Shown in pieces: positions 3,839 to 33,266 of a stretch of DNA of 35,232 nucleotides. This stretch comes from an uncultured Methylococcaceae bacterium. GTDB lineage: Bacteria; Pseudomonadota; Gammaproteobacteria; Methylococcales; Methylomonadaceae. The stretch spans positions 1 through 35,232 of the forward strand of contig CAIOMN010000120.1 of the NCBI GenBank assembly GCA_903859415.1. The letters run 5' to 3'. Positions within the stretch are counted from its first letter, which is position 1; every line of letters begins with the position of its first letter. The translations under genes and the position numbers were made by a program. A model generated the notes under the pieces. The model was given only the letters and a program-made list of their open reading frames with translations, did no database searches and was not told the origin of the DNA.

Positions 3839-5970
3839 TGTAAAACCTCCTTAGCACTACGACGATAAACATGAACAGCAGGAACTAACAAGGCTACGAA
3901 AATAAGTAACCCCAGGATTACTGGAAACCACAAAGGATGATTCCATACCCTTCTCTTTTCTGCTCTTTCGACTGGATCTATACGCGTATATTTAAGGCGG
4001 TTATTAGCCATCAAATTTGGCTTTAAATTACTATACCAACTATGAAATAAAGAGAAGTTCTTAGGGTGAAAGCCAAATACCCAAGGTGCATCGTGCCGGA
4101 CAACTTCCTGCAACTGTTGAATAATTTGGTATCGCTGTTCGCTATTATCCATATTCCGCATTTTCTGAAACAATTTATCAAACTCTGGGTTTTGATAATT
4201 AGCTGCATTCTCCCCTCCATATTTGACCTTTGAATTAGGCCCGTACAATAAGAAAAATAAATTTTCTGGATCAGGGTAATCCGCATTCCAGCCCCAAACG
4301 AATATTTGCTCATTCCCAGTACGCATTTTTTCTTGAAAACGATTGTAATCAGTACCTCTAACTACCAGCTTAATACCTAATTTTTCAAACTGTTTACGAT
4401 ACCAGTTCATCGTTGGCCTATCATCAATGCTGACAGAAGCAGTATCGAAATACAAAATAAGAGCTTCTTTAGTTTTCGGATCAATACCATTCAGATAGCC
4501 AGCCTCTTCCATTAAATGCCGAGCCGCCTCAATTTTTTTACGCTCTGGTTTATCTGCTTTCCAGTCATAGTTATAAGAGTTAATTCCTTCTTTTTCATCA
4601 GTATAGCCAAAAATACCCGGCGGAATAACTCCCTGCGCCACAACACCTCGCCCATTTCTAAAAATAGAAATAAACTCTTCATAATCTACGGCAATTGATA
4701 TAGCCTGGCGTAACTTTCTAGCTCTCTCACTATCCCCTCCAACAACCGGATCAAGCATGTTAAAGCCCATATAAAAAATAGATGCTTCAACTAATGTTTG
4801 CAGCTTAATACCTTTTTCCGTCATTGACTCAGTCAAGGTAGCGCCTCCGCTTCCTGTAAATTGAATCGCTTGATCAAAACTGTCTGACGCTATCCCTGAG
4901 GCATCATAATACCCTTGAAGAAACTTAGTCCAATAAGGGATTGTTTCCTTTTCTAACGTAAAGATCACTTTATCAATAAATGGCAATTTTTTTCCAGCAT
5001 CTTTAAGTAAAGCATTCTGTTTATCACTTGGCTCTCCCTCAGAGGGATATGACTCAAAATGAAAATTTGGATTTTTTACCAAAATCATGCGTCGATTAGG
5101 ATTATTTTCGGCTAATAAATAAGGCCCTGTACCAATAGGATACCAATCCAAGGTTATATTTTTATTCGATAATCCTGCTTGCTCATAAAATACATCAGCC
5201 TCCCAAGGCAAAGCAGAGAAAAAGGGCATTGCCAACCAAAAGATAAACTGTGGATACTTTCCTTTAATTCGAATACGATACTGATAACGCCCAGTGGTTT
5301 TGACTCCAGAAATCGTCTTATTTTTTAACTCAGTTTTTTGCAAAGAAGCGACTTCTTTTGAAAACTCATCAAATCCTACAATATAATTCTTCATGATCTC
5401 CGCGATTGGAGATTGAACTTTAGGGTGTGCCAAGCGTTTAATCTGATACACATAATCATCGGCTGTCAGCTCACGTGACCCAGTATCAACGAAATCATTG
5501 AGTGAATTTGCCTGCTGAATCTGTGTTTCAGACAAGTTATGATAACTATATTCAGATTCAGACGTTTTGGCTAAAGCTGCATGAGGTTGAAACTGAATAC
5601 CCTGTTTGAGATCAATCACATAATCTGTAAAAGCAATATCACTGTCTTGAACATCATTCCCTAACTTATTTCCGTGACTATCCAGATAATTTATCTCCGG
5701 CATTTTACTGGCCGTTAAGGGAGTTAATTGATAAGGTCTCTTTAAATAATGATATTGAAATGGAGATTCATAAATCTGAGCAATAAATGCATATTCATTT
5801 TCACTATAGGCAGTTGCTGGATCTAGATGTTTGGGTCTTTCAGAAAATGATTGATATAAAACCGAAATTGCACCCTCATCTTCAACATAAGGATTATTAA
5901 GCTGTGAAGCATCACAACCCATTAAAACCATTAAAAATATCAATTGACTTATATAGGTGCGTATACTCAT
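3835..5970 (-). CDS. lipoprotein substrate-binding protein of a peptide-type ABC importer (SBP_bac_5)
   Basis: A 711-residue binding protein of the OppA/DppA class. A lipobox (LMGC, Cys19) follows a short hydrophobic signal, so the protein should be lipid-anchored. The body shows class features: HLDPATAYSENEY near the start, WYPIGTGPYLL in the middle, LRQAISIAVDYEEFI and VVAQGVIPPGIFGY, then WNADYPDPENLFFLLYGP towards the end. It is longer than the usual 530-600 residues and ends in a hydrophobic helix (about residues 681-700) with a basic tail, which would give a second membrane anchor. It starts the operon and overlaps the next gene by 4 bp. No ATP-binding subunit gene is found beside it, so one must be supplied from elsewhere. 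Confidence 0.85.
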   Translation of the reverse strand: MSIRTYISQLIFLMVLMGCDASQLNNPYVEDEGAISVLYQSFSERPKHLDPATAYSENEYAFIAQIYESPFQYHYLKRPYQLTPLTASKMPEINYLDSHGNKLGNDVQDSDIAFTDYVIDLKQGIQFQPHAALAKTSESEYSYHNLSETQIQQANSLNDFVDTGSRELTADDYVYQIKRLAHPKVQSPIAEIMKNYIVGFDEFSKEVASLQKTELKNKTISGVKTTGRYQYRIRIKGKYPQFIFWLAMPFFSALPWEADVFYEQAGLSNKNITLDWYPIGTGPYLLAENNPNRRMILVKNPNFHFESYPSEGEPSDKQNALLKDAGKKLPFIDKVIFTLEKETIPYWTKFLQGYYDASGIASDSFDQAIQFTGSGGATLTESMTEKGIKLQTLVEASIFYMGFNMLDPVVGGDSERARKLRQAISIAVDYEEFISIFRNGRGVVAQGVIPPGIFGYTDEKEGINSYNYDWKADKPERKKIEAARHLMEEAGYLNGIDPKTKEALILYFDTASVSIDDRPTMNWYRKQFEKLGIKLVVRGTDYNRFQEKMRTGNEQIFVWGWNADYPDPENLFFLLYGPNSKVKYGGENAANYQNPEFDKLFQKMRNMDNSEQRYQIIQQLQEVVRHDAPWVFGFHPKNFSLFHSWYSNLKPNLMANNRLKYTRIDPVERAEKRRVWNHPLWFPVILGLLIFVALLVPAVHVYRRSAKEVLQ

Positions 5971-25500: not shown

Positions 25501-25890
25501 CTAGCGGGGTAATTGCTGTTTAACCCGTTGCGCTGCCTGCTCACAATCAACTGCTGTTTTTTCAACCTTCTGGCGTAAAAAAAGTCCAATAATTGCACCA
25601 TCACTTTCACGAGAAACATACTCATTAAGTGGTGCACACGCTTCTTGCATAGCCTGCTCAGCCTTTAACAAAACATCACGATTATTAACTTGATCAGTCT
25701 CTTGCAACTCCATAAGATCACTCGTCACACTATTTTGCAGAACAAACACCGTTTCAACGTAATGAGAAAACTCTTCCTTTGTTTGACCTTTTGCTCCATA
25801 TCCTTTAGAAAAAGGCAGGCTACAACCTGATGACAGCAATACCGCGACTATCAGAAGTGGACTTAAAAAATTAACCAATCTACGCTCCAT
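25501..25890 (-). CDS. small lipoprotein, unknown
   Basis: A 129-residue protein with a type II signal peptide ending LSSGC (lipid-modified Cys23). The mature part is about 105 residues, mostly helical and polar, with two Cys (in EACAPL and VDCEQA) that could form a disulfide in the periplasm. No known domain is recognised. It is divergent from the dynamin-like gene (185-bp gap), so the two may share regulation, but a functional link is not shown. The ribosome site is weak (AAAAG). Confidence 0.65.
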   Translation of the reverse strand: MERRLVNFLSPLLIVAVLLSSGCSLPFSKGYGAKGQTKEEFSHYVETVFVLQNSVTSDLMELQETDQVNNRDVLLKAEQAMQEACAPLNEYVSRESDGAIIGLFLRQKVEKTAVDCEQAAQRVKQQLPR

Positions 25891-26075: not shown

Positions 26076-27500
26076 ATGACTGAAAAGACAGTAAGCAAAT
26101 ATCTGCTCAATCTGGAAAAAAACGTTGCCCATGATAATCCAGCATTACAAAGATCAGTACATATTTTTCATGAGCTTGATCAAATTGAATACGACCTGGG
26201 TCTTATTGATATAGACGAAACAACAGCCAGTAAAAATTCATGGTCGCCTATCATCAGCTTAATTGGTGGTAACTCCACAGCTAAATCCAGATTTATAAAC
26301 AGCTATCTGGGCACACAGCAAACCACTGCGGGAATTCAGGCTTCAACGCACAAATTCACTGTGCTATTACCCAGCAGTCAAGTTAACTCGGCGACCTTGC
26401 CAGGCACTGCGCTTGATGTTGATCCTCGCTACCCTTTTTATCAAATCAGCAGAAAAATTGAACAGCTTCAAAAAGGTGAAGGTGACCGAATTAATGCATA
26501 TCTTGAATTAAAGGCCCTCAACAGCGAACGATTAAAAGGCAAATTATTCATAGACTCCCCAAATATGGGCGTTTTGCCATTAAACCCCATTAACTCGATG
26601 CTGGTAAAACACATCATTGAAAACTCCGATGTGGTTTTGGTTTTTACTGATTTATTTGAATCAGCAGCCCCATTACTTGAAGAAGTCATCGAACAAATTG
26701 CTACACACCAGGATTCCAATAAATTTATATATTTGATTGACGAACCAATCGCTACAATCAATCCGGCTAAAGCCAATGAAATCATTCTTTCCTGGCAAAA
26801 AAGGCTTCTGGGAAAGGACCTGCATACCGGACAGTTCATTATTGTACCTAATCAACAAAATAGCATTAATCCTCAAAGCAAAGTCGATTTCTCGGAAATA
26901 GACCAACGCATGACCAATGTTTCATTTGACCGAACTTACCGAATTCTTAATCTGCTTGAGAAAAATATCCGGGATATAGAAGACGTCATCATACCCGAAG
27001 TAAAAACGGGCATCAAAACCTGGAAAGAGCGGGTCAATTTATCAACTCTATTCGTGGTGAGCTTAATTGTACTGCTAGGCATTGGTGCGGAAATACAATT
27101 AGGCATTTTAGAAGTGTTAATGGACCCTATTATCGGCTCTGTCGCTATCGGCGTTCTAATAGCTGTTCTGGTGCCTACCCATATACTCCTCAGTAAACTC
27201 CATGCAAAACTGATTATTAACAAATTAAATGAGCGACAAAAGGAACTCCATTTGATGGAGAACCTGGCAAACCTCTTCGAAAAAAATATCACTTTCGTGC
27301 GTATGCTCTTACCTATTTATGAATCAGCGGGCTGGAATAAAAAGGTTAAAGCGGAATTAACCCACTTAACGGATAAAACTAAAGACTTAGTGCAATCTTT
27401 AAATGATATTTTTGGAACAACTGAAGAACAAGCACCCGTTCAAACGATTAAAGAAGAGCACCACACCAACTACCTGGATTTATCAAAATTAAAAGAATAA
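26076..27500 (+). CDS. EHD/dynamin-like P-loop membrane protein with degenerate GTPase motifs
   Basis: A 474-residue protein whose first 260 residues follow the plan of dynamin-family GTPases of the EHD type. The P-loop region is GGNSTAKS (64-71), compared with GxxSTGKT in EHD proteins. A switch-like QASTHKF sits at 89-94, and LPGTALDVDPRYPF (108-121) closely resembles the EHD segment VPGNALVVDPRRPF. A G3-like DSPNMG starts at Asp160. The Walker A Gly is Ala, DTPG is DSPN, and the NKxD specificity motif is not seen (IDEP at 221-224), so nucleotide use may be altered or lost. Two close hydrophobic helices (about 322-345 and 350-373) form a membrane hairpin, followed by a helical tail. AGGAG lies 9 bp before the ATG. 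A membrane-protein gene follows 48 bp downstream. A membrane-remodelling role is inference. Confidence 0.65.
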   Translation: MTEKTVSKYLLNLEKNVAHDNPALQRSVHIFHELDQIEYDLGLIDIDETTASKNSWSPIISLIGGNSTAKSRFINSYLGTQQTTAGIQASTHKFTVLLPSSQVNSATLPGTALDVDPRYPFYQISRKIEQLQKGEGDRINAYLELKALNSERLKGKLFIDSPNMGVLPLNPINSMLVKHIIENSDVVLVFTDLFESAAPLLEEVIEQIATHQDSNKFIYLIDEPIATINPAKANEIILSWQKRLLGKDLHTGQFIIVPNQQNSINPQSKVDFSEIDQRMTNVSFDRTYRILNLLEKNIRDIEDVIIPEVKTGIKTWKERVNLSTLFVVSLIVLLGIGAEIQLGILEVLMDPIIGSVAIGVLIAVLVPTHILLSKLHAKLIINKLNERQKELHLMENLANLFEKNITFVRMLLPIYESAGWNKKVKAELTHLTDKTKDLVQSLNDIFGTTEEQAPVQTIKEEHHTNYLDLSKLKE

Positions 27501-27548
27501 TCGAATAATCCAGACCGTGTCAATTAATGAAGAAACGACAGAAATGAT

Positions 27549-28064
27549 GTGACTAACATGCTATCAACCGAGCTTCTTACACAATATTTGCCTTTGTGCT
27601 GGTTTAAACAGGACCCACTCAAGCTAACAAGATCAATGAGTTTTTTTAAAACAAACCTGTTGATCTACTTTATTGTGGAGTACATCACGCAAGCCAACAT
27701 GACAGACGATCCGTTTGAATCTTTTGTTGAAGTATCAATACAAATCTTGCTGACTTTGTTCTTCATCGGTTTTGTTCTGCACTTAAATAAAACCTTATAT
27801 GCCTATATTCAAGTCACTTCATCGATTTTAGTCTGTGCAAATATCATATCTATTTTCGTCATTCCTGTTTTGGTCTGGCTAACCGTCGATGAAAACATTT
27901 TAAGCTATTATAGTTTGAGCCTTTTGTTCGTGTGGGAGTTTACAGTTATATCGTATATCCTCAGAAAAGCCCTCACCATCAACTCTACAGCTGGATTAGC
28001 GCTCTCAGTAGTGTATTTTTCGATAACCTACCTAGGCGCTTTTGCATTGGGACAACTCGTCTGA
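27549..28064 (+). CDS. polytopic membrane protein next to the dynamin-like gene
   Basis: A 171-residue hydrophobic protein with about five membrane helices (near residues 35-50, 64-80, 86-113, 121-142 and 147-171) and a short cytoplasm-like N-terminus (LCWFKQDPLKLTRS). The spacing of helices recalls bacterial Yip1-domain proteins, but I cannot confirm this from sequence alone. It starts with GTG (27549) or ATG (27558); neither has a clear ribosome site. The 48-bp gap from the upstream gene and the same strand argue for a two-gene operon. Its stop is only 11 bp from the convergent MFS gene, with no terminator between. Confidence 0.6.
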   Translation: MTNMLSTELLTQYLPLCWFKQDPLKLTRSMSFFKTNLLIYFIVEYITQANMTDDPFESFVEVSIQILLTLFFIGFVLHLNKTLYAYIQVTSSILVCANIISIFVIPVLVWLTVDENILSYYSLSLLFVWEFTVISYILRKALTINSTAGLALSVVYFSITYLGAFALGQLV

Positions 28065-30113: not shown

Positions 30114-33100
30114 TTAAACCGATCTCAATATTGAAAAGTGTCTATACAATTCCATAGGCATCGCATTTTTCAACTCCCAAGTAATTGAAATGGGCCGTTC
30201 GCCTTCTGCTTTAATTAATACAGCCTCCCCTAATGCTGCAAAAGCAGAGTCTTTATTCTCTCGGACAAACAAATAAAATCGCCAATCATTAGCGGGTGTG
30301 TCTACACTTTCTAAATATCGACGACCTGTTTTGTTAGCTGAGTTAGCCACATTTTGTGATTGCCAATGGAATAATTGAGGACTAATCGCATAATCATGAT
30401 ATTGAATCCGCTCATCAAAGCCTTCGCTTTTGTCTAGCGTTACAAACATGAGTTCAATTTTAAAATCTGCAATAGGTAAACAACCTTCCCTAAAAGCAGG
30501 TCTTTTACTGGAATCGGCATAACCGATTGCTGTAATAATATCGGACCTTGAATATCGGTTATGTAAAGAAAGAACCCACTCCGATGGCATTCCATCAAGG
30601 TGAAAGTAAGGCTGTATCGCTTGTTCTAACTGCCAATCAATAACTTCAATTAACTCTTTTTTAATGGCTGGATGTTGATCCAATAATAGAATCAATTGCT
30701 CGGGGCTAATCAATTCAGATTGTTTGACCAGGAGCGTATGCGCTAACATTTGAACCCTAGTTTGATCAACAGCCTGATGGTGTAAAAACTGATACCAAGC
30801 TTTTAAAACCTCCACATCATCAACAGTCAAAAGACTGGCTATTCTGCGCGACAATTCGTCTTCCCTAGACCCCTTTGTTGGCGTTGGAAGTTGAGCACGC
30901 CGCATAAGCTCAGCCCATGAATGATTACCCGAGTAAACATCCGAAATATCTATTACATTCTCCAACAAAAATGCTTTGAGCTTAATATCGGCCTTATCTT
31001 TAGAACTTGCCCATGCAACTAACTCGGCGGCTAAACGACTCACATTCAATTTTAAAGCATACTGAAGACTTGCTAATACTCGCTCTCTAGCCACCTTATC
31101 AAATTGAATATGACAGCCTGTAGGTAATAAACCAAATCCTTTATCAACAGAGTCTTTTATTGCCAATCGACTTTGCCCTGTTAAAGCTCTTAACAATATA
31201 TCAAACCTAAAGTCTTTAGAATATGTGCCAATGAAATCTAAGACTAAACAACTCTCTTTACCTCTCGCTAACCGTAATCCACGACCAATTTGCTGTTGAA
31301 AAACAACGGGGCTTTGTGTGGGCCTAAGCAATAACAAAGTATTTACTTCTGGAATATCAACCCCTTCATTAAATAGATCACAGGTAAAAATTACTTTTAA
31401 TCTGCCCTGTTTCAATTCATTAATAGCATGATCACGCTCTTCCTGAGTGTGCTGCCCTGTAATTGCTTTTGAAGGCAACCCTTTCTTTTCAAAATAATCC
31501 GCCATAAACTCAGCATGGCGGACACTGATGCAAAAACCAATAGCTTTGAGCTTTTGTAAATCACTGACATAAGTTTCAACCGCTTGCAGTGCTGAGCGAG
31601 CTCGTATTTCACTAGCTGAAATTATATTGTCCAGTTGAATATCGATGTTTTTTTGCTTCCATTGAATGCTGGTTAAGTCAATATTGTCATGGGTTGCATA
31701 ATATTCAAAAGGAGCTAATAACTCTTGATCCAGTGCATCCCATAATCTTAAAGTTACCGCAGGTGAACCATCAGGCCTTGCATCAAAATATTGATTTAAA
31801 CTTTTGCCATCTGCCCGCTCGGGTGTCGCGGTTAAACCCAAAAGAATAGCGGGATTAACCGATGAAATAAACTTATCAAACGAACTAGCGGGTAAATGAT
31901 GAGCTTCATCAATAATAACCATATACCAAAAATCTGCGCCGTGTTGAGTTACCAGATTTCGATTATGTACTGTATTAATGGTTACAAATAAATGCTCATG
32001 CTGACTGGCTACATTATTACCGTCTAATAACTCACCAAAATTTGAATCACGTAACACTTGTCGGAAAGTACTGATGGCCTGCATTAAAATCTGCACCCGA
32101 TGAGCAACAAATAACAATCTTGGCTGGCCGCCTTTTTCTTTCGTCAATCGTGCATAATCAAACGCAGCAACAACTGTCTTACCTGTACCTGTCGCAGCGA
32201 CTACTAAGTTACGATAACGTTGATGAGCTCTTTCAGCGGCTAAACGATCTAACATTTCTTGTTGATAAGGTTTCGGAGTTAAATCAAACCATGTCCGAAT
32301 AGCAATCAACTCAGAGTTACTTTGATAAGTTTTTCCGTGCCTTGATTCTGCCTGCAAAGCCTTCTCTAGAGCATTACGATGTTCTTGATTATTTGGATCA
32401 TAATGAAGAAACTCACCATCATTCCAAAGTGTCTCAAAATGAGCTTGAGCATTTTTAAAAACGGCTTCGTTTGAGCTTTGGGTTAATTTAACAGTCCATT
32501 CGATACCACTAATTAAAGCCGATTCTGAGAGATTAGCACTCCCTATAAAAGCAGTTCCAAAGCCACTGGCTCTATTAAAAATCCATGCCTTAGCATGCAA
32601 TCGCGTGCGTCGTCCGTCTAAGGAGATTTTTAAATCCACATTGGGTAATTCAGCAAGAGCATTAACAGCTCTTGCCTCGGTGGCACCAATATAAGTGGTT
32701 GTTAGAATGCGGAATTTTGTGCGAGATTTTCCATTTGCATCAATTGCAGTCGCTTGTTTTAATACATCAATTATTTTTCTAACGCCGCTCCATGTAATAA
32801 AGCTAACCAAAATATCTACCGTATCAACAGCTTGTAATTCTGCAATAAGCTCATGTAATAAAGCAGGCTCACTACGTGAGGAACTAAACAACCAAGGTCT
32901 TCGTAAGCCGGTGATAGGGAAAACTCCCGGCATATTGGGCTCATGAACTGAGCGTAAAATTTGGGGGGGTTGTGCTATAAAATCAACATCTAACTCAGCT
33001 TTAGATTGAAGCCGAGCATTTTTCAACAACGCTGAAATAAACTTAATTTCAGTTTGTGCTTGCTCAGTATCACCCTTGTTCGGTGAAGAAATTTCATCCA

Positions 33101-33266
33101 AAAGTTCAGGCAATCTATTCATTAATTCGGCTAATAAATACTCCCTATTTTCAACTGACGAAGGTTTACTAACAGTGGCCCTGCCATCAGTCATTAATTG
33201 ATTAATTTCTGCTAACTCAGTATCAAGAATCAGTCGATCGTATAAGCCTTTAGATAACTTCGTCAT
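30114..33266 (-). CDS. PLD-type nuclease/superfamily 2 helicase fusion (DUF3427-like C-terminus)
   Basis: A 1050-residue fusion. Residues about 130-290 form a phospholipase-D-like nuclease domain with one HxK motif (His224, Lys226) and GSANLSESAL. The acidic residue expected 5 after the Lys is Asn, which I believe is common in this subgroup. A superfamily 2 helicase follows: motif I ATGTGKT (358-364), DEAH (453-456), TATPER (479-484), motif V FNEGVDIPEV (632-641) and motif VI QQIGRGLRLARG (658-669). The rest, about 350 residues, ends with RRYLESVDTPANDWRFYLFVREN, like the DUF3427 domain of such helicases. GGAG lies 5 bp before the ATG. No methylase or other restriction/defence partner is adjacent. 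DNA repair or phage defence are both possible. Confidence 0.8.
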   Translation of the reverse strand: MTKLSKGLYDRLILDTELAEINQLMTDGRATVSKPSSVENREYLLAELMNRLPELLDEISSPNKGDTEQAQTEIKFISALLKNARLQSKAELDVDFIAQPPQILRSVHEPNMPGVFPITGLRRPWLFSSSRSEPALLHELIAELQAVDTVDILVSFITWSGVRKIIDVLKQATAIDANGKSRTKFRILTTTYIGATEARAVNALAELPNVDLKISLDGRRTRLHAKAWIFNRASGFGTAFIGSANLSESALISGIEWTVKLTQSSNEAVFKNAQAHFETLWNDGEFLHYDPNNQEHRNALEKALQAESRHGKTYQSNSELIAIRTWFDLTPKPYQQEMLDRLAAERAHQRYRNLVVAATGTGKTVVAAFDYARLTKEKGGQPRLLFVAHRVQILMQAISTFRQVLRDSNFGELLDGNNVASQHEHLFVTINTVHNRNLVTQHGADFWYMVIIDEAHHLPASSFDKFISSVNPAILLGLTATPERADGKSLNQYFDARPDGSPAVTLRLWDALDQELLAPFEYYATHDNIDLTSIQWKQKNIDIQLDNIISASEIRARSALQAVETYVSDLQKLKAIGFCISVRHAEFMADYFEKKGLPSKAITGQHTQEERDHAINELKQGRLKVIFTCDLFNEGVDIPEVNTLLLLRPTQSPVVFQQQIGRGLRLARGKESCLVLDFIGTYSKDFRFDILLRALTGQSRLAIKDSVDKGFGLLPTGCHIQFDKVARERVLASLQYALKLNVSRLAAELVAWASSKDKADIKLKAFLLENVIDISDVYSGNHSWAELMRRAQLPTPTKGSREDELSRRIASLLTVDDVEVLKAWYQFLHHQAVDQTRVQMLAHTLLVKQSELISPEQLILLLDQHPAIKKELIEVIDWQLEQAIQPYFHLDGMPSEWVLSLHNRYSRSDIITAIGYADSSKRPAFREGCLPIADFKIELMFVTLDKSEGFDERIQYHDYAISPQLFHWQSQNVANSANKTGRRYLESVDTPANDWRFYLFVRENKDSAFAALGEAVLIKAEGERPISITWELKNAMPMELYRHFSILRSV

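Follow-up and report, generated by a model that had tools for sequence, protein, structure and literature searches.

What does an EHD/dynamin-like protein do in a methanotroph once its nucleotide motifs have eroded, and does the membrane protein encoded beside it share in the task? The question is raised by two adjacent genes in a 35,232 nt stretch of DNA (the window) from an uncultured Methylococcaceae bacterium (contig CAIOMN010000120.1 of assembly GCA_903859415.1). An earlier note, made from the sequence alone, had read the first as an EHD-type protein with changed motifs and a membrane hairpin, and the second as its dedicated membrane partner. Both genes lie where that note had placed them (Table 1). 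The genome is that of a methanotroph close to Methylobacter: in a named collection its nearest records are uncultured Methylococcaceae, and Methylobacter psychrophilus and Methylobacter sp. KS41 are among those that follow.

Table 1. Positions of the features discussed, in nucleotides of the window
Feature	Position	Strand	Basis
Divergent lipoprotein, three invariant Cys (lipobox + two)	25501..25890	-	Upstream of the EHD-like gene, frequent neighbour
474-aa EHD/dynamin-like protein, nucleotide motifs eroded	26076..27500	+	ORF; PDB profile and fold matches to EHD4/EHD2; single eroded clade; purifying selection
Former P-loop GGNSTAKS (G[TL]FS[AS]GKS[ST] in intact kin of the order)	26265..26288	+	Alignments, motif tables
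Retained segment resembling the EHD KPF loop, TLPGTALDVDPRYPF	26394..26438	+	Retention averages 0.90 across 11 columns of the eroded representatives
Former G3 motif DSPN (DSPG in intact kin)	26553..26564	+	Alignments, motif tables
Former G4 position DEPI (NQ[IM]D in intact kin of the order)	26739..26750	+	Alignments, motif tables
Membrane hairpin, two hydrophobic helices	27039..27185	+	Hydropathy; model helices 282-342 and 351-390
Five-helix membrane protein, usual neighbour	27558..28064 (ATG, 168 aa, likelier) or 27549..28064 (GTG, 171 aa)	+	Same-strand linkage in 93/111 distinct loci; model

In a Pfam scan, the window protein gave a sub-threshold Dynamin_N match (E 0.01) and no C-terminal EH domain, and 17 of 22 aligned relatives matched Dynamin_N at E up to 1, the best at 3.9e-16. 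A profile search of the PDB with the 22 relatives returned EHD4 (E 1.3e-5) and EHD2 (E 3.4e-4), followed by Era GTPases from E 0.033. When an AlphaFold2 model of the protein (pLDDT 76.7, pTM 0.70) was submitted to Foldseek, the five best matches were all EHD4 or EHD2, with E-values from 9.4e-9 (EHD4) to 1.2e-6, and Fzo1, a bacterial dynamin pair and IniA ranked behind them. The TM-scores were modest (0.35-0.42 by query), which we attribute to domain placement in a medium-confidence model. The structure search did not place the protein in an unrelated P-loop class, and the EHD likeness proposed in the earlier note is borne out by both profile and fold.

The profile matches span nearly the full length of the protein, pointing to common descent with bacterial EHD-like GTPases, and in a tree rooted on 13 rows of the class the eroded rows join the intact rows of the order (SH-aLRT 99). 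The window protein thus descends from bacterial EHD-type GTPases, which are built from G domain, helical stalk and membrane hairpin. In PMC7016017 the closest bacterial homologues of EHD and sarcalumenin are described as having two membrane helices behind the GTPase domain, and the eukaryotic EHD progenitor is traced to a proteobacterial lineage; bacterial EHD kin with a two-helix hairpin are therefore already published, and these proteobacterial GTPases share both family and layout with the window protein, a dynamin-type G domain followed by two membrane helices. Compared with eukaryotic EHD2 and EHD4, its best PDB matches, the window protein retains the PGxALxVDPxxPF (KPF) segment and has a membrane hairpin, whereas the nucleotide motifs are lost and no EH domain was found. 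That the window protein is an EHD relative whose motifs have eroded is, taken together, very probable.

Two observations concern the wider family. Intact bacterial EHD kin (loci L032-L039 and L060-L086) carry VDD in place of the switch-I TTD of EHDs, and may accordingly differ in catalysis from the eukaryotic proteins. A defence role of the kind associated with the LeoA/LeoBC dynamins was considered and set aside, the window protein having no PADLOC match at E 0.01; one intact relative (L034) matches LeoA weakly (E 2.5e-7).

The motif changes described in the earlier note are real, and they extend to the whole family. Neither GxxxxGK[ST] nor DxxG nor [NT]KxD is intact in the window protein, which reads GGNSTAKS, DSPN and DEPI at these places and keeps LPGTALDVDPRYPF. 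Of 301 genomes from the order, 229 have an EHD relative, almost always in single copy, and so have 92 of 369 from the class, a figure that includes three from the order. In the family of the window (Methylobacter, Methylovulum, Methylotuvimicrobium and kin; here f1) the protein was counted by hand in 212 of 227 genomes. Among 195 loci with the gene, GxxxxGK[ST] was matched by 37 (36 distinct), all from outside f1; beyond the order, the loci compared were the 27 best-scoring from 89 genomes. No match was found in the remaining 158, among which are a truncated copy (L162) and repeated records of some genes. A tree of 80 chosen representatives, built by a quick method without bootstrap and with three motif stretches left out, separates 59 eroded f1 rows from 21 intact rows outside f1 on one branch (SH-aLRT 100, length 1.15). 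Rows were scored as eroded by the P-loop pattern, and the finding is that this sorting coincides with family and clade: the 21 representatives outside f1 keep GxxxxGK[ST], DSPG and NQxD, unlike the 59 within it. To judge from these alignments, the nucleotide motifs were lost in the ancestor of the methanotroph family to which the window belongs. Scraps of the ancestral motifs (GKN, APG, NQ) persist in lineages g16 and g27, which suggests stepwise erosion. In the literature searched, which covered bacterial EHD proteins, pseudoGTPase dynamins and dynamins in Methylomicrobium or methanotrophs and was largely restricted to papers readable without subscription, we found no report of a family-wide motif loss and no description of the eroded clade.

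Erosion has spared much of the P-loop likeness in the lineage of the window, and a re-shaped pocket might still bind nucleotide or another ligand, making the protein a slow or altered ATPase/GTPase instead of a nucleotide-free scaffold. Alanine at the position of the GKS glycine is a derived state common to 45 of the 59 eroded representatives, Lys 70 of the P-loop is kept in 50 (replaced in nine) and Asp 160 in 44. Yet a complete [NT]xxD is absent from the aligned positions in all 59 rows, just as GxxxxGK[ST] is, and several lineages have dispensed with the lysine altogether (GGSSQASSR, GGNTQAASR, GTATAGAEK). Exchange of the GKS glycine for alanine, moreover, abolishes nucleotide binding in Ras and RhoA mutants, which also counts against an active pocket. 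The slow ATP hydrolysis described for eukaryotic EHDs (PMC9741607) speaks for residual activity, and we regard such activity as unlikely, though deserving serious weight.

What has been kept is as informative as what has been lost. Retention was tested on the 108 columns in which the 36 distinct intact sequences are at least 95% identical, sorted into sets chosen by the analyst: the nucleotide site (14 columns), the LPGxALDxDPRxPF or KPF segment (11) and all remaining columns (83). Eroded rows have kept the residue of the intact sequences at a mean rate of 0.29 in the nucleotide site, 0.90 in the KPF segment and 0.60 in the remainder, with differences between nucleotide site and KPF segment (p=1.4e-4), nucleotide site and the 83 other columns (p=0.015) and KPF segment and the 83 others (p=0.003). 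Against the rest of the G domain (59 columns), the lower retention at the nucleotide site was not significant (p=0.065), so the whole domain drifted on the stem. Profile alignment identifies the retained segment as the counterpart of the EHD KPF loop, which in EHDs enters a pocket of the G domain and acts as an oligomerisation interface (PMC9741607). A KPF-type loop therefore appears to be present in the window protein as a retained segment, with a putative oligomerising role.

The membrane hairpin has a different history. Hydropathy places its two helices at residues 322-340 and 352-370, and both helices were found in 16 of 18 rows scanned at the same cut-off, including all six eroded rows scanned. 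The two adjacent helices of the earlier note are thus real, but they are not part of the change, because intact kin possess the hairpin too, a point already in print (PMC7016017). The hairpin is ancestral in the clade of the window.

A protein with ruined motifs at the end of a long stem branch could be a decaying GTPase relic. However, dN/dS of the EHD-like gene was 0.04-0.11 in 11 eroded pairs, close to the 0.09-0.10 of two intact pairs, so the protein is not decaying, and its presence in nearly all f1 genomes argues in the same direction; a relic is barely credible. The membrane-partner gene gave 0.03-0.15 in ten pairs, and both proteins are under purifying selection. The breadth of the EHD-like gene across the order and the low dN/dS of both genes indicate that the two genes are not there by chance.

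The second gene encodes the membrane protein that had been predicted, with about five helices: its AlphaFold2 model (pLDDT 93.6) consists of an N-terminal helix and five longer hydrophobic helices, and alignment with relatives favours the ATG start over the GTG start. The model is small and all-helical and shows no further domain, and a PDB fold search with it returned nothing convincing (best E 0.83). Across distinct loci with a non-intact P-loop, a count that takes in truncated L162, the gene is linked to the EHD-like gene in 93 of 111, without exception on the same strand and at a distance of 5-501 nt (median 48); among the 18 non-linked loci, at least one ends close behind the EHD-like gene (L157, 272 nt). 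Wider flanks were compared at 84 loci, the best 80 of 532 plus four, two of them second copies of the same records. With L161 set aside (its gene is cut by the contig end), the partner was present at 77 of 83 assessable loci, compared with 23 for ubiH and 21 for an MFS gene, and partner linkage therefore outlasts that of other neighbours. None of the 36 distinct intact loci showed the partner, although two of them (L080, L083) run out within 171 nt after the EHD-type gene; a linked membrane gene is thus usual in the clade of the window, in contrast to intact bacterial EHD kin.

Partner-grade matches (E below 1e-30) were counted by hand in 176 of 212 f1 genomes with the EHD-like protein, as against five of 15 without it. 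The 36 exceptions fall in g32 (17), g17 (seven), g18 (five) and others (seven), and some may be assembly or first-look misses. Of the genomes examined, three of g32 contain only another f1 subtype of the partner family and one of g17 (G115) has just the general type; those of g16, g27 and g37 carry a related copy away from the EHD-like gene. Genus g34 has no EHD-like protein (five of five genomes) and only weak partner-family matches, the three copies examined being of the general type. The link is thus strong without being obligatory. The second gene is a frequent conserved neighbour, so that the refuting result named in the earlier note, homologues in which it is never adjacent, was not obtained. 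A real functional tie between the two proteins is probable.

The partner family itself divides into two. In a tree of 70 rows (midpoint root, quick method), one half is made up of general copies, all from the order except for two that come from the class, and the other half (SH-aLRT 98) contains f1 rows only, namely the linked partner, the unlinked g16, g27 and g37 copies and the other f1 subtype. Outside the order, the best match to the family in 339 class genomes searched reached only E 3e-17. By eye, the general type follows an ABC-F-like ATPase gene in L220, L211, L213 and L219 and precedes a UspA-like gene in L219 and L220. Assignment to Yip1 (PF04893) was tried and rejected: one of 24 members matched at E 0.054, a signal too weak to use, and a profile-profile comparison with six bacterial Yip1 proteins gave E 0.093; one of six distant paralogues reached E 1.2e-4.

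A dynamin-like protein with a usual gene neighbour recalls the E. coli pair RdcA/RdcB (YjdA/YjcZ), a dynamin-like protein with an operon partner. RdcA is described in PMC6510439 as forming oligomers and binding to DgcE at the membrane MASE1 domain of the latter, and it remains fully functional after replacement of the P-loop lysine. Because it can act on a membrane protein without that residue, RdcA offers a precedent for a nucleotide-independent reading of the window protein. It also invites the view that the window protein is a signalling adaptor: free of nucleotide, it would gather its membrane partner into clusters or switch it on, in the way that RdcA acts on the membrane domain of DgcE, and would shape no membrane; the small, all-helical partner with no further domain would suit such a role. 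RdcA, however, is a working GTPase whose G2 threonine is required (PMC6510439), and RdcB, in the accessible part of the same source, resembles no known family and is nowhere termed a membrane protein, unlike the five-helix partner here. No diguanylate cyclase or other output gene was a shared neighbour when the neighbours of the window genes were compared across loci, and the EHD-type hairpin and KPF segment point to membrane scaffolding. RdcA probably belongs to another dynamin-like group than the window protein, and we consider a purely signalling adaptor improbable.

Upstream of the EHD-like gene and on the opposite strand, the lipoprotein gene is present at 61 of the 84 wider loci (best 80 of 532 plus four), and its family, for which Pfam gave no convincing match, occurs in 209 of 301 genomes of the order. 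The lipoprotein is possibly a component of the system. That it is an obligatory third part is not supported: it is also found in family f4 genomes without the EHD-like gene, and it is missing from listed f1 genomes of g3, g16, g18, g34 and g37.

Other features of the surroundings are recorded here for completeness. A promoter scan gave five sites, against 8.3 in shuffled sequences, and a terminator scan six, against 1.6, none of them 3' of the gene pair on the + strand. Elsewhere in the window (30114-33266, - strand) lies a gene for a 1050-aa helicase/PLD-type protein that matches the PADLOC model of a type IV methyl-directed restriction enzyme (E 2.2e-190). By eye, mreC-/mreD-like genes adjoin the EHD-type gene on the opposite strand at six of the 36 intact loci (L069, L072, L075, L081, L084, L086), and a phospholipase D/cardiolipin-synthase-like gene at intact locus L032 of genus g8 (4382-5515) is convergent with the EHD-type gene, with an overlap of a few bases. 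Small membrane or TPR-like proteins recur upstream at five to seven of the 36 intact loci.

The eroded form has been seen only in methanotrophs of one family, the genome of the window has two AMO-family matches (PF02461), and PMC9445010 describes as unknown how the intracytoplasmic membranes bearing particulate methane monooxygenase are formed. The protein might on these grounds be a dedicated organiser of such membranes. However, ten f4 genomes (G046, G057, G060, G073, G081, G091, G096, G099, G102, G105) and the g34 genomes G179 and G258 have AMO-family matches and no EHD relative, and intact kin are widespread in the class. An exclusive tie to methane-oxidising internal membranes is therefore not supported, and a dedicated role of this kind is very unlikely.

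The reading that we prefer, tentatively and with slightly less than even confidence, is that of an EHD-type scaffold or adaptor in the membrane, independent of nucleotide and in most cases working together with a membrane protein. An ancestral GTPase would have lost its nucleotide motifs and kept the oligomerisation-loop segment and the hairpin, leaving a protein held in one state, embedded in the membrane and free of nucleotide dependence, which could oligomerise through the KPF-type interface. In most lineages, the five-helix partner would recruit or regulate the EHD-like protein in place of nucleotide turnover. The likely output would be an inner-membrane patch held or organised, or a clustered partner, and through the divergent lipoprotein the system may reach into the periplasm. 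We infer from this arrangement that the protein would bind no nucleotide, would oligomerise, would bind its partner and would organise membrane as the outcome; the membrane-remodelling or stress role proposed in the earlier note likewise may apply. Counting against the scaffold are the much P-loop likeness that survives in the lineage of the window, above all the widely kept lysine, the lack of a significant difference in retention between the nucleotide site and the rest of the G domain, and the fact that the partner is not obligatory. The fuller proposal, that the whole family has a permanently nucleotide-free EHD-type scaffold whose assembly is partner-controlled in most lineages and which the lipoprotein possibly links to the periplasm, is plausible but somewhat more doubtful.

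Loss of catalysis with survival of a binding role has parallels among GTPase-related proteins. To our knowledge, the eukaryotic pseudoGTPases Rnd1/3, CENP-M and the p190RhoGAP domains are neither dynamin-type nor bacterial. Their GTPase-related domains keep binding roles without catalysis (PMC10211241).

Mutants are the usual means of asking if membranes can be organised by dynamin-type proteins in the absence of nucleotide turnover. Here, evolution ran the experiment, the motifs having been given up and the oligomerisation segment and hairpin kept across many genera. Comparison of the intact and eroded branches would separate the role of the nucleotide from the role of the scaffold in EHD proteins. 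As well as this, the system gives a testable setting to two conserved methanotroph families that have no convincing Pfam match, the membrane partner and the lipoprotein. If the scaffold reading is true, these methanotrophs would harbour a dynamin-type machine that works without fuel.
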